A stretch of 40,755 bases of DNA from Candidatus Peregrinibacteria bacterium (GTDB lineage: Bacteria; Patescibacteriota; Gracilibacteria; UBA1369; LOWO2-01-FULL-3). How positions within the stretch are numbered: position 1 is the first letter of the stretch; each line of letters begins with the position of its first letter. The notes beneath the pieces were generated by a model that saw only the letters and a program-made list of their open reading frames with translations, searched no databases and had not been told where the DNA came from. The DNA lies in the NCBI GenBank assembly GCA_030592015.1, contig JAUUZY010000006.1:1-40755 (forward strand), given 5' to 3'. The position numbers and the translations under genes are program-made. Below, in pieces: positions 24,170-28,376 of the stretch.

Positions 24170-24544
24170 CTATACTTCTATTTCTATTTCCTTCATTACA
24201 GGTGCTTCGGCTGTTCGAATAGATTGATGTCTTCTATCTTTCCTAAGCCTAGCCATGTGCTTTTTTAACTGATTCACCAACCTATCTTTTGATAGGTCTA
24301 CAGCCTTAGTTATATGATGACTTGCCTCTGAACTTACCAAGCTCTTAGTAGGAAGTGTTAGACAAAGTTCTACCTGGAAAGCATCATGCTTGGTGAACTT
24401 TTCAATTGTAGCGTTTAGAATGCTTGCATCCTCGGCAAACTTTGTAAGCAAGCTTTCGATAGCCGGACGTTTTTCCTCTACATAGTCAGAAAATTTCTGC
24501 TCCTCTTCTTTACTGAGATTCTTGTGAAAGAATGTGATTTCCAT
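24170..24544 (-). CDS. hpf: Ribosome hibernation factor HPF/RaiA family
   Basis: A 124-residue protein starting M-E-I-T-F-F-H-K-N-L at 24544; an in-frame reading from 24601 would add 19 residues that overlap the promoter. It has the beta-alpha-beta-beta-beta-alpha outline of the S30AE domain, with an N-terminal strand, a helix (L-S-K-E-E-E-Q-K-F-S-D-Y-V), strands with A-F-Q-V-E-L-C-L-T-L and a final helix with A-V-D-L-S-K-D-R-L-V-N-Q-L-K-K-H. There is no long-form C-terminal dimerisation domain. It should bind the 30S decoding centre and stabilise idle ribosomes. A strong promoter lies upstream, back to back with that of a structured RNA. Confidence 0.85.
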   Translation of the reverse strand: MEITFFHKNLSKEEEQKFSDYVEEKRPAIESLLTKFAEDASILNATIEKFTKHDAFQVELCLTLPTKSLVSSEASHHITKAVDLSKDRLVNQLKKHMARLRKDRRHQSIRTAEAPVMKEIEIEV

Positions 24545-24572
24545 ATGAAGGTTTGTTAAAGGATTGGATACA

Positions 24573-24601
24573 AATATAGCATTTTCTCCTAAATGATACA
24601 A
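24573..24601 (-). promoter_or_regulatory. Promoter of hpf
   Basis: On the minus strand TTGTAT (24601-24596), an exact 17-nt spacer and TATATT (24578-24573) precede the ATG at 24544. Transcription would start near 24566, giving a leader of about 22 nt. This excludes the longer reading of hpf that begins at 24601. Confidence 0.6.
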
Positions 24602-24618
24602 TATGTTGGTTTCACCCC

Positions 24619-24647
24619 TTGCTATTACTCTCGAGATGTGGTACTAT
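24619..24647 (+). promoter_or_regulatory. Promoter of the structured RNA
   Basis: TTGCTA (24619-24624), an exact 17-nt spacer and TACTAT (24642-24647) point away from hpf. The expected start is about 24653, exactly at the base of the first RNA hairpin. Confidence 0.55.
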
Positions 24648-24651
24648 ATAT

Positions 24652-24833
24652 GTGCAGTTGAGATAGAGACCTCGTGTTTCCGTTTCGATTGCACGCCTTC
24701 CACTTCTTTAGTCCTCGGACTCTAGGAGCGTGAAGACCCTCCGGTATTCTTTTGATAGCTTCGGCTCTCAAAATTATGCCGCTGAAAGGACCACTCGTGA
24801 ACTTTTTAAGCCCACTTGTGGTCCTTTCTTTAT
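24652..24833 (+). ncRNA. Candidate structured non-coding RNA, about 180 nt
   Basis: The 328-bp gap between hpf and the next plus-strand gene holds no convincing ORF but strong RNA structure. Arm 1 (24652-24694): GTGCAGTTGAGA pairs with TTTCGATTGCAC without interruption; after a U-G and one A-C mismatch, GAGAC pairs with GTTTC around a CUCGU loop. Five of its pairs are G-U, which would be A-C mismatches on the other strand, so the plus strand is the RNA strand. Arm 2 (about 24703-24735) includes AGTC-CTCG-GACT closed by CTTC/GAAG. Arm 3 (24742-24781): CGGTAT/ATGCCG, then TTTTGA/TCAAAA, a mismatch, and AGC/GCT capped by a C(UUCG)G tetraloop. Arm 4 (24784-24828) is a long terminator-like hairpin. 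It could be a trans-acting RNA or a leader of the gene at 24873. I cannot match it to a known family. Confidence 0.65.
24784..24833 (+). terminator. Terminator-like hairpin ending the structured RNA
   Basis: GAAAGGACCAC (24784-24794) pairs perfectly with GTGGTCCTTTC (24818-24828), 11 bp. A further GTG/CAC pairing sits inside the large loop. TTTAT follows the stem. The U-tract is short, so termination may be partial, which would allow read-through into the gene at 24873. Confidence 0.6.
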
Positions 24834-24872
24834 GCCTGTATAATCGGCTCAATACCCATAAACTTAACTCCT

Positions 24873-25112
24873 ATGGACGTCGATAAAATTCCTGTGATCG
24901 GAAAAATCAACAGATCACTAAACATGCTAATACTGAACTTTGTTCTATTGGCTGTTGTATTTCTTGTACTTGGAATACTGATTCCATTCTACCCAGCGAT
25001 TCTGGATATACTTGTTGCGGCACTACTGATCGTTTCTGCAATTATTTTCATGAATATTGCATTTAACATTCACTCGCACAAAAAGAAATATCTAAAGTGG
25101 TTGGATAAGTAA
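24873..25112 (+). CDS. Small two-TM membrane protein
   Basis: A 79-residue protein from ATG 24873 (context CTCCTATGG). After a polar N-terminus (1-16) there are two membrane segments (about 18-38 and 43-65) and a basic tail (H-S-H-K-K-K-Y-L-K-W-L-D-K), giving a hairpin topology with both ends inside. An in-frame GTG at 24816 lies within the RNA terminator stem and is not a credible start. The family is not recognised. It follows the structured RNA by about 40 bp and precedes the ion transporter gene. Confidence 0.65.
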   Translation: MDVDKIPVIGKINRSLNMLILNFVLLAVVFLVLGILIPFYPAILDILVAALLIVSAIIFMNIAFNIHSHKKKYLKWLDK

Positions 25113-25172
25113 GTTTTCCCTAGACTTTAGTGTTATCAAGAGTAAACTGCGTCCATAATTAGCTAAAGGGCT

Positions 25173-26471
25173 ATGTTGACATATATCACCATTGGAATCT
25201 TTCTGCTCGCTTTCTCACTTCTAGTATTTGAGCTGTTTGATAAGTCTCTGATTGCGCTCTTTGGAGCCTTACTCATGATAATTGTTGGTATTTTGAGTCC
25301 TGAAGAGGCTATAGAAGCGATAGACTTTGATACGATATTGCTTCTTTTGGCGATGATGATACTGGTGAATATAGCCGCCAAGAGTGGCATATTTGCTTGG
25401 CTGAACATAAAGATAGCGGCTCTGACCAAGGGCAATCCCCTGGCGCTCTTTTTCTTCTTTTCATTGATTACCGCAATCTTTTCTGCATTTCTAGATAATG
25501 TAACGACAATCATACTTGTCGTGCCTCTTACCATTGAGCTTTTGCGTGGAATGGGACGAGACCCCAAGCCCTATATTTTTGCTGAGATTTTATTTTCCAA
25601 TATAGGTGGTGCGCTGACACTTATTGGTGATCCTCCGAATATTATCATCGGTGGTGCTACAGGATTCAGCTTTTTGGACTTTGTTAGCAATCTTTGGATT
25701 CCTATTTCTATGGTTGCTGTTTTTACGATGTTCGTATTTGTTCTTTTGAATTGGAAAAAGCTGAAACCTATTAGCGCTAGCTTGGTGGACCTTTGTATTG
25801 CGAATATTCTGATAAAAAAGATCCGGCACAAGTTTTTGAAGAAGACTATGCACAGAGATTTTATCTTAAAAGTTATAGCGGTGCTTTTTTTGACGATAAT
25901 GGGGTTTTTCCTTCAGCAGCAGATTGGACTTCCAACATACATCATCGCGTTCACAGCGGCTATTGTGTTGGCCCTGCTGACGGCCAAGAGGGTAAATATT
26001 CATGAGGCTTTTCAGTCTGTGGAATGGACTACCCTGTTTTTCTTTGCGGGGCTGTTTATAATGGTTGGTGGTGTAGAGAAAACCGGAATGTTGGAGCAGC
26101 TTAGTCACTGGGTTGCGAATTCGACGAACAATATTTTTTATCTTTCACTGATCGTTTTATGGGTTTCCGGGTTTGTTTCTATGGTTTTGGACAATATCCC
26201 CTTTGTGACGATTATGATTCCCGTGATTATTGGAATTCAGGCGCAATTCCCAGGTTATGATACTACGATTTTGTGGTGGGCCCTTTCACTTGGCGCCTGT
26301 CTCGGAGGGAACGGTACCTTGATTGGTGCTTCTGCGAATGTTGTGGCTGCAGATATGGCCAAAAAGGAAGGTGTGCACATTTCGTTTCTTAGCTATATGA
26401 AATTCAGTTTTCCGCTAACTATTGGCATGCTGCTTTTGTGTAGTGCTTATTTATTTATTAGAGTTGGATAA
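25173..26471 (+). CDS. ArsB/NhaD/CitM-type ion transporter
   Basis: A 432-residue membrane protein with about 10-12 hydrophobic segments. Two related halves of the ion transporter superfamily can be seen. The first has D-N-V-T-T-I-I-L-V-V-P-L-T-I and G-G-A-L-T-L-I-G-D-P-P-N-I-I-I-G; the second has L-D-N-I-P-F-V-T-I-M-I-P-V and L-G-G-N-G-T-L-I-G-A-S-A-N-V-V. These paired D-N and G-x-x-x-x-G-x-x-x-N hairpins are typical of ArsB, NhaD and CitM. Substrate cannot be fixed: arsenite, Na+/H+ exchange or organic anions are all possible. No arsR or arsC is nearby. The next gene starts 2 bp after its stop. Confidence 0.85.
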   Translation: MLTYITIGIFLLAFSLLVFELFDKSLIALFGALLMIIVGILSPEEAIEAIDFDTILLLLAMMILVNIAAKSGIFAWLNIKIAALTKGNPLALFFFFSLITAIFSAFLDNVTTIILVVPLTIELLRGMGRDPKPYIFAEILFSNIGGALTLIGDPPNIIIGGATGFSFLDFVSNLWIPISMVAVFTMFVFVLLNWKKLKPISASLVDLCIANILIKKIRHKFLKKTMHRDFILKVIAVLFLTIMGFFLQQQIGLPTYIIAFTAAIVLALLTAKRVNIHEAFQSVEWTTLFFFAGLFIMVGGVEKTGMLEQLSHWVANSTNNIFYLSLIVLWVSGFVSMVLDNIPFVTIMIPVIIGIQAQFPGYDTTILWWALSLGACLGGNGTLIGASANVVAADMAKKEGVHISFLSYMKFSFPLTIGMLLLCSAYLFIRVG

Positions 26472-26473
26472 CA

Positions 26474-27415
26474 ATGCAGACAAAAATTGAATTATTTTCA
26501 CAGTTGCTCAGAGAGCTAGAGGCCGATATCGGTACTAGAGATCTCTCTGATTTGGTTTTTGTGGCTCTTATTGAATCTATAAAGTCTTTGGATGTTAAAG
26601 ATTCAAAGAAATTTTCTGCGGAATTTTCTAAGCTTGTTGATATTGTCACCCATACTGAGCCGAAATTTGGAATTCTAAATTATTACCTGACCAATCTTCA
26701 CTGGGAGTTTGAACAAAATATTTGTACAAAGGACGTTGATGATAAAAAGTGGAAGAGGATGGCTATAAACAAGATTAACGCGATACTCAAGAGTATGAGA
26801 AAGCACAAGAAAAAGCTGTTCCATCATGCTGAGAAAATAAATGTAGAGGGCAAGACTATTTTGATTCATGATCATAGTCATACTGTACAAGATGCCCTTA
26901 GGTACTATAGAGGGCAGGGAAAGCATTTTAGAGTGGTTATTGCGGAACAGGACTATGAAAAGACCCATGACAATATTGAGTGCCTTCATGCTGCGAGGAT
27001 TCCATTCCAAGTTGTTCCTGCATATATGATTTCTCATGTGATGGAGAGTATCGATATGGTTTTCTTTGGTGCTTTGACCCTGAAAGATACCATGCATTTT
27101 GTAATGTCTCCGGGGACTCATGGAGTAATTACGGAGTTCCATGCGGAAAAGGTTCCAATCTATGCATTCTTCGATACTTGCAAGTTTAGTTTGTGGAAAT
27201 CAAAGAAGCGTGGGGAAATTTTCATTCACAAACATACAAGAAGCCACTATGCCAAGCCGATTGAATATGAGCGAATCAAATATTCTCATGATCGTGTGCC
27301 GATAAACTTGTTCAAGAAGATTGTTACGGACAAGGGTGTTTTTAGTCCGGCTGAATTGGAAAAGTTATACAAGAAAACTTTTGATGAATACGAGAAGATC
27401 AGGAAAAAGCATTAG
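26474..27415 (+). CDS. eIF-2B alpha/beta/delta-family protein, apparently non-catalytic
   Basis: A 313-residue protein. Residues 1-115 are helical. Residues about 125-290 match the IF-2B fold: T-I-L-I-H-D-H-S-H-T-V, then F-R-V-V-I-A-E-Q-D-Y-E, then A-A-R-I-P-F-Q-V-V-P-A-Y-M, and K-V-P-I-Y-A-F-F-D-T-C-K-F. This fold includes eIF2B subunits, ribose-1,5-bisphosphate isomerase and MtnA. The conserved G-A-D of the active enzymes reads G-A-L (199-201), and the usual catalytic Cys region reads H-D-H-S. It may bind a phosphorylated sugar or nucleotide without isomerising it, or catalyse something else. It is coupled to the transporter gene. Confidence 0.75.
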   Translation: MQTKIELFSQLLRELEADIGTRDLSDLVFVALIESIKSLDVKDSKKFSAEFSKLVDIVTHTEPKFGILNYYLTNLHWEFEQNICTKDVDDKKWKRMAINKINAILKSMRKHKKKLFHHAEKINVEGKTILIHDHSHTVQDALRYYRGQGKHFRVVIAEQDYEKTHDNIECLHAARIPFQVVPAYMISHVMESIDMVFFGALTLKDTMHFVMSPGTHGVITEFHAEKVPIYAFFDTCKFSLWKSKKRGEIFIHKHTRSHYAKPIEYERIKYSHDRVPINLFKKIVTDKGVFSPAELEKLYKKTFDEYEKIRKKH

Positions 27416-28376
27416 CATTAGGCGACCAATAGATCCTGACCTTTTCATCTATTTCCTCTATTACCTGCGATCTCTCTTGTGGCTGCCAGTCCATCTCCCA
27501 ATCTCCGGCTTCATTCAAAAATCCTGCATGTGCGAGTTGATGGTGAGTTCGACAAAGTTTTACCACTCCGTCGTGCGATTTGGTCAGTGCATATCTTTTC
27601 GAATGGTGGAATTCCGTAGCTAGCTCATTACAATCAGCTACACAACATCTATCATTCTGTTTTTCCTCCACTTCCCGCTTCTCACTGACCCGCATCTGCC
27701 GTGTGACTTTTACAATTTTCTTGGTTTTTCTTTTCTTTGGTTCATGGCTTTCTACTCCCTCCAGCAACTTTTTCAATACTTCCCCCATTGTCATCGCTCT
27801 ACCTGCCTTTTTCTCAAGCTCATGTTTTAATTTCTTGAATTGAAATTCTGTCTCCTCATCAACTCTGAATTTCAGCATCGTCCTATCATCAAAATCGGCT
27901 CTATCCGCGCAAGGGGCATTGTCCCCTAAACTCATTCCAACTTGAATACTGCCCTTACTCAAGCTCACATCTCTGCATTGCTTCTCTTCTCCGGGGACAG
28001 ATTTGAATTTTTTCACCAGCTTCTCCAAACCGGACTTTGTGCATCGATTCAAGTTCTCGATCCAGATCTTCTCAGTTTCCGGAGTCACAGCGCAGGCTAT
28101 CACTCTCATTTTGCTCCATCCATGCACTCTGATTTCTTCCCACAACATCGGCATCTCTTCAAACTTCTCCCCCAATCTCAAAACTCGTCCGCATACTTCA
28201 AAGTTCATCCCCGCCACTTTAGCAGCGAATTCATAAATACTCTGAAACCCTTTCATCCTGTGTAAGTCTCTTCTCGCAACTTCCGGCAGATAGTAGGCGA
28301 ATTCTCGCATCCATTTCCGAGCATTCCCCCCGCATTCCTGGCAAAGCTTATACAGTTCTCGATCTGAAATTTTCAT
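27399..28376 (-). CDS. HNH nuclease-domain protein (paralogue of 1468-2304)
   Basis: A 325-residue protein with the same layout as the one at 1468-2304. The N-terminal helical half has G-G-N-A-R-K-W-M-R-E, Y-L-P-E-V-A-R-R and G-F-Q-S-I-Y-E-F-A-A-K-V-A-G-M, nearly matching the first paralogue. A middle region (about 150-215) with a D-E-E-T-E-F-Q-F-K-K-L-K-H-E-L segment differs. The C-terminal HNH/zinc part has C-C-V-A-D-C, then F-H-H-S-K-R, then V-K-L-C-R-T-H-H-Q-L-A-H. DNA cleavage is inferred; the role is unknown. Its 3' end overlaps the convergent eIF-2B-like gene by 17 bp. Confidence 0.8.
   Translation of the reverse strand: MKISDRELYKLCQECGGNARKWMREFAYYLPEVARRDLHRMKGFQSIYEFAAKVAGMNFEVCGRVLRLGEKFEEMPMLWEEIRVHGWSKMRVIACAVTPETEKIWIENLNRCTKSGLEKLVKKFKSVPGEEKQCRDVSLSKGSIQVGMSLGDNAPCADRADFDDRTMLKFRVDEETEFQFKKLKHELEKKAGRAMTMGEVLKKLLEGVESHEPKKRKTKKIVKVTRQMRVSEKREVEEKQNDRCCVADCNELATEFHHSKRYALTKSHDGVVKLCRTHHQLAHAGFLNEAGDWEMDWQPQERSQVIEEIDEKVRIYWSPNANAFS

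Follow-up and report, generated by a model that had tools for sequence, protein, structure and literature searches.

With trans-encoded type I antitoxin RNAs, two unlinked loci share a short stretch of complementarity dedicated to each other. In Campylobacter jejuni, RNase III acts on the RNAs of the CJnc190/CJnc180 system, an sRNA and its cis-encoded antagonist RNA (PMC8687705), and in Caulobacter, CrfA, which was found among Hfq-associated RNAs, is a sponge of SisA-D (PMC12559287). The raiA motif RNA, or ModT (RF03072), is found chiefly in Bacillota and Actinomycetota (PMC11706538). Regulatory small RNAs have hardly been explored in the Candidate Phyla Radiation, and our text searches of the literature returned no paper that mentions both Peregrinibacteria and noncoding RNA. 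Here, we analyze a window of 40,755 nucleotides (the whole stretch of DNA under study) from Candidatus Peregrinibacteria, which contains a structured RNA, RNA1, whose candidate partner, RNA2, lies elsewhere in the same genome. We consider it probable (about 0.72) that the two form a trans-encoded pair of sRNA and antisense RNA (sponge or target) acting without Hfq, a reading that rests on structure, conservation, strand, complementarity, compensatory changes, joint absence, and the lack of Hfq.

RNA1 folds at −78.1 kcal/mol compared to −42.4 ± 4.3 kcal/mol for dinucleotide shuffles (z = −8.3; 0/200 shuffles as good), with the reverse strand of the same interval reaching a z of −5.5 (Table 1). 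Together with homologs and covariation (see below), this bears out a sequence-only reading of the stretch, which had proposed a structured plus-strand RNA with at least three strong helices, a C(UUCG)G tetraloop, and a terminator-like hairpin; the computed fold consists of four consecutive hairpins, P1, P2, P3, and the terminator hairpin, with the tetraloop forming the loop of P3. In the predicted fold, the first six letters of the conserved core (ACCCUC) are unpaired, forming a toehold, and the remainder is the 5′ strand of P3. The 17-nt-spaced promoter claimed before the first helix is also present, its −10 element stopping four bases ahead of P1; with 8/12 consensus matches it is weak alone and stays under the cut-off of a generic scan, and most homologs keep TTGnnn-17-TATTAT at equal distance. 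The earlier strand argument from G-U pairs was right in kind, with 7 such pairs in the minimum-energy fold, and in nearly all of the 17 RNA1 copies the margin by which the fold beats its shuffles is larger on this strand than on the opposite one (the exception being L013). No ORF is conserved among the 17 copies, and since the helices covary and no ORF is shared, we conclude that RNA1 is non-coding and lies on the plus strand. The peptide AEAIKRIPEG, which the reverse strand would encode in several genomes, was rejected, its frame not being kept and a stop interrupting it in L026. The sequence-only reading had matched RNA1 to no known family, in agreement with our Rfam searches, which returned two tRNAs only for the whole window at gathering score and nothing beyond chance matches for 24400–25200 at E ≤ 10. 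These results confirm RNA1 as a real, uncatalogued, multi-hairpin small RNA of Candidatus Peregrinibacteria that is predicted to be independently transcribed.

Table 1. Features of the RNA1 locus and of its candidate partner (window positions unless a contig is named)
Feature	Position	Strand	Basis or remark
S30AE-domain (hpf-like) gene, divergent from RNA1	24170–24544	−	Pfam PF02482, 26.2 bits
RNA1 promoter, TTGCTA (24619–24624)-17 nt-TACTAT (24642–24647)	24619–24647	+	Sequence; spacing and position alike in most homologs
RNA1, ~182-nt structured RNA	24652–24833	+	Fold z −8.3; homologs in 16/30 family genomes
RNA1 hairpin P1	24652–24694	+	Fold; in all homologs except G028/L049
RNA1 hairpin P2, variable	24697–24735	+	Absent in L015 and L026; row of hairpins instead in L046
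RNA1 conserved core ACCCUCCGGUAUUCUUUUGA, complementary to RNA2	24736–24755	+	Alignment, partner search, duplexes
RNA1 hairpin P3, C(UUCG)G loop	24742–24781	+	Fold; duplicated in L009 and L011
RNA1 terminator hairpin (24784–24828) and U-rich tail	24784–24833	+	Structure kept, sequence differs between genera
Promoter of membrane-protein gene, TTGTGG-17-TATAAT	24816–24844	+	−35 inside 3′ arm of RNA1 terminator
Small membrane protein, 79 aa	24873–25112	+	Weak YrhC-like match below cut-off
RNA2, ~55 nt: core-complementary 20-mer and terminator hairpin	Same genome, C43:15376–15426 (L155, L165), outside the window	+	Upstream of ytxH-like gene

With respect to the distribution of RNA1, all genomes compared are metagenome assemblies. 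A DNA search of related genomes gave three short matches, all in P3, and reading of these places revealed whole homologous RNAs near an S30AE gene. Scanning the S30AE loci of 30 family genomes for the core yielded twelve RNA1 copies near the S30AE gene, to which a core covariance model (R1) added G028 as well as copies elsewhere in G001, G018, and G019. Across the class, RNA1 was found in 16/353 genomes, all belonging to one family (16/30) and none to the other 323 genomes; the organism labels within this family are Candidatus Peregrinibacteria, Peribacteria, or Gracilibacteria. Two RNA1-carrying records, JAACEU010000113.1 (L084) and JAUVQE010000001.1 (L113), belonging to G010 and G026, are labelled Nitrospirae/Nitrospirota and are likely mislabelled assemblies. 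Weak R1 matches outside the family were inspected or judged to be chance, with L050 and L124 sitting inside genes.

The RNA1 copies share a common plan of promoter, P1, optional P2, conserved linker with P3, and terminator, with a 5′ stretch resembling UUGCAAUUG in many of them. P2 is missing in two copies and P1 in one, and P3 is doubled in two (G010 and G021). One copy, L046 (G001:C2, ~1340–1590), carries, ahead of P3, several similar UUCG hairpins in a row whose internal loops are CU-rich, which suggests module multiplication, and L048 (G019:C121, ~175–610) holds two complete tandem RNA1 genes, each with promoter and terminator. The helix sequences differ greatly among copies, with pairing retained. 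Covariation was assessed in genus-level alignments instead of a full-length RNA1 covariance model because helix lengths vary. In genus g13, 7/44 pairs show changes on both sides compared to 3.2 in shuffles (0/500 shuffles reach this; slid controls, 0 to 3), and for the window together with genus g11, the count is 8/63 pairs (37/500 shuffles reach this; slid controls, 1 to 2). P3a shows 95% paired cells across 12 sequences. Conservation and covariation in relatives, which the sequence-only reading had named among its checks, are thus both observed.

Most genomes with RNA1 contain a second instance of the core motif. In the genome of the window it lies at C43:15377–15394, with the RNA1 sense on the minus strand, and a one-mismatch search of this genome for the core complement returned two places only, RNA1 and RNA2. 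Read on the other strand, the second site gives UCRAARGAAUAYURGAGGG, followed by a few purine-rich bases, a terminator hairpin, and a U-run. Since the terminator stems at five RNA2 loci (L155, L135, L137, L140, and L146) contain G-U pairs, which the opposite strand would turn into A-C, the RNA2 strand is the complement of RNA1; these pairs, together with promoters and position, rule out the site being a second same-sense copy of RNA1 and establish it as antisense. We searched a covariance model of RNA2 (R2) in the family and beyond, with convincing matches within the family only, adding G018, G008, G027, and G002. Matches near E = 0.0005–0.001 (G014, G020, and G028:C1) lie within coding sequence and were discarded. 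G016 has a diverged RNA2 form at the equivalent position. Downstream of RNA2, ytxH (PF12732) follows in nearly all loci; RNA2 as a ytxH leader was rejected as first choice, most genomes having a promoter-like −10 for ytxH after the RNA2 terminator. As a separate observation, L158 (G019:C8, ~1150–1460) carries a promoter-led RNA of ~294 nt, possibly 6S-like, that folds into a single, very long hairpin with interruptions (−91 kcal/mol), has a terminator behind it, and holds a near-copy of the RNA1 core motif.

RNA1, reading 5′-CCCUCYGRUAUUCYUUUGA, is complementary to RNA2 over ~20 bases, with a computed duplex energy of −30.7 kcal/mol in the genome of the window. Mean duplex energies are −29.4 kcal/mol for genus-cognate, −23.3 for non-cognate, and −9.3 for shuffled combinations, a complementarity that is partly by selection because most RNA2 sites were found using the RNA1 motif. 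Sites found independently, by the R2 model or by position, are those of G018, G008, G016, G027, and G002, with weaker pairing in G027, G002, and G016. When genera are permuted, 85/40320 assignments are as good as the real one, related genomes being non-independent observations in these pairing statistics. Upon cofolding, P3 opens and the duplex forms, with a gain of 14–19 kcal/mol in four genomes and 6.9 kcal/mol in G016. Both-side changes that keep pairing are seen at core positions 1, 3, 7, 9, and 18: C-G becomes U-A at position 3 in G028 and at position 7 in g13, U-A becomes C-G at position 18 in G001 and G019, position 1 is G-C or A-U (g11, G028, and G008 versus two g13 genomes), and position 9 is A-U or G-C. 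Position 8 is G in all RNA1 copies and U in 10/11 RNA2, giving a steady G-U. The pairs of G010, G026, G028, and G008 contain one or two mismatches, and G018, misregistered by one base in the position table, pairs over 12 bp in the duplex computation. Extended complementarity between RNA1 and RNA2 is therefore kept by compensatory change, as for a pair of sRNA and anti-sRNA. The core complement GAAUACCGG also resembles what we take to be a conserved 16S stretch; complementarity of the core to 16S rRNA was set aside as an explanation, variants such as GAUAU not fitting, and no 16S gene was found in the assembly of the window.

The two RNAs also tend to be absent together. Three genomes (G017, G020, and G023) keep SLH-ytxH and have neither RNA, G020 belonging to a genus that includes three RNA1-positive genomes, and three more (G004, G006, and G007) have ytxH with neither RNA2 nor RNA1. 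The exception is G003 (170 contigs), where RNA2 is present and no RNA1 was found; in G021 and G025, RNA1 is present and the region upstream of ytxH is absent from the assembly. Neither RNA was found outside the family. Hfq (PF17209) was found in 0/30 family genomes, with control genomes positive, which sets RNA1 and RNA2 apart from the class of Hfq-dependent sRNAs.

In agreement with the sequence-only reading, RNA1 lies back to back with an hpf-like gene, the divergent neighbor being the S30AE-domain gene. The proposed link to hpf holds as a common neighborhood and fails as a defining one: most RNA1 copies are near an S30AE gene, and those of G001 and G018 lie elsewhere in the genome. The link is frequent, not essential, and the trans-encoded antisense partner is the better functional lead. 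Elsewhere in the window, a 325-aa ORF without a Pfam match (27399–28376, minus strand) has a C-terminus that reads HNH-type endonuclease-like (CCVADCNE..HH..CRTHHQLAH). Gene starts at 24544 (minus strand) and 24873 (plus strand) and at the ytxH and hpf loci of the family lack a Shine-Dalgarno sequence, and many family genes instead have TTAACC-like letters a short distance ahead of the start codon.

The neighborhood bears on the suggestion, made in the sequence-only reading, that RNA1 might serve the small membrane protein at 24873 as leader or attenuator. The membrane-protein gene does follow in the same direction in several genomes, but in the window it has a promoter of its own behind the RNA1 terminator, and in several family members that lack RNA1 it is the immediate divergent neighbor of hpf, so that RNA1 is a unit of its own; some RNA1 copies, moreover, adjoin other neighbors. 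A leader is hence very improbable. Equally little speaks for a type I toxin-antitoxin system with RNA1 as toxin mRNA and RNA2 as antisense antitoxin: trans-encoded RNA antitoxins with ~18–20 nt of complementarity are known, but a conserved ORF is found in 0/17 RNA1 copies, which largely excludes this reading and makes it the least credible of those considered. RNA1 could instead cover the Shine-Dalgarno sequences of many mRNAs with its CCCUCC, RNA2 being a decoy, as would suit an unpaired CCCUC and a GGAGGG carried by RNA2. This is unlikely here because a Shine-Dalgarno sequence is present at 0/10 gene starts inspected in the window; furthermore, conservation of the core extends well past CCCUCC, and only one extended partner is found in the genome of the window.

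If the 19-bp motif common to both loci were bound as DNA by a transcription factor or recombinase, with no RNA-RNA pairing involved, the co-change would be accounted for as well, since a changing DNA-binding protein would also make the two sites of a genome change together. We nevertheless find this improbable, given that the G-U at core position 8 would be two different bases as DNA and that the motif is fixed within RNA features, namely the 5′ strand of P3, a hairpin that covaries, and the place directly before the terminator stem. A further possibility, tentative and in our view doubtful, is that RNA1 is a regulator acting on RNA2 as a target within the 3′ UTR of whichever mRNA lies upstream, mostly that of an S-layer-homology (SLH) protein, with pairing beside the terminator altering mRNA stability. 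An SLH gene is upstream of RNA2 in most genomes, its stop shortly before the site, and RNA2 promoters there are weak or none is clear, with the terminator always present, so that RNA2 beside SLH genes may be only a 3′ UTR. In the genome of the window, however, the upstream gene is divergent, and in three others it is Maf, where RNA2 has its own near-consensus promoter (11/12, 10/12, and 10/12); RNA2 also goes with ytxH rather than with SLH.

We thus return to the trans-encoded pair. In this model, the RNA1 core (unpaired ACCCUC and 5′ strand of P3) would pair with RNA2, a single antisense RNA encoded in trans and dedicated to it. RNA2 would dock with its GGAGGG end on the CCCUC that RNA1 leaves unpaired, P3 would then be opened by strand exchange, and a ~20-bp duplex would form, which may silence or destroy one partner, most likely via RNase III-type cleavage by analogy with a described pair (PMC8687705). 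RNA2 would be a sponge or anti-sRNA of RNA1, or RNA1 would repress the transcript bearing RNA2; expression, in vivo pairing, the direction of control, the RNase III step, and downstream targets are predictions of the model. More speculatively, and with some doubt on our part, the pair might represent a natural toehold-type RNA switch of ultra-small bacteria lacking Hfq: RNA2, short and encoded in trans, would invade one hairpin of the modular, structured RNA1 and open it. Such a switch would link the S30AE and ytxH stress loci, and its hairpin modules would be multiplied in certain lineages (the UUCG row of G001, the doubled P3 of G010/G021, and the tandem gene of G019). RNA1 is a concrete, alignable RNA family, and because the partner is predicted letter by letter, including the compensatory changes, Hfq-free RNA-RNA regulation in this group of bacteria becomes directly testable with two synthetic RNAs.

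Compared to described systems, RNA1 shares with raiA/ModT the association of a structured non-coding RNA with a neighboring ribosome-hibernation gene, after which that class is named (PMC11706538). In contrast to it, RNA1 is divergent from the gene, is not always near it, and belongs to a different phylum, and its predicted fold is accounted for by a simple row of nested hairpins. A pseudoknotted core with P1–P8 is a feature of the raiA motif. RF03072 gave no match in the window (gathering score, and E ≤ 10 on 24400–25200) or at ten homolog loci (E ≤ 0.5); with no model match, another phylum, and another orientation, RNA1 is not a raiA/ModT RNA. Trans-encoded type I antitoxin pairs differ in that a toxin ORF is absent from RNA1. 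The CJnc190/CJnc180 system resembles RNA1/RNA2 as an sRNA with an antagonist RNA pairing to it, but its antagonist is cis-encoded, whereas RNA2 is encoded at a locus far from RNA1, with pairing limited to ~20 nt. CrfA and similar trans-encoded sponges are alike in base-pairing with another sRNA; CrfA, however, is Hfq-associated, and RNA2, a candidate sponge from a family in which no Hfq was found, consists of a bare complementary 20-mer and a terminator. RNA1 constitutes a new family whose partner, encoded in trans, is a bare complement; our literature search found no pair of this kind for the group, and by analogy we predict that the two RNAs work like the known pairs of sRNA and anti-sRNA (PMC8687705, PMC12559287).
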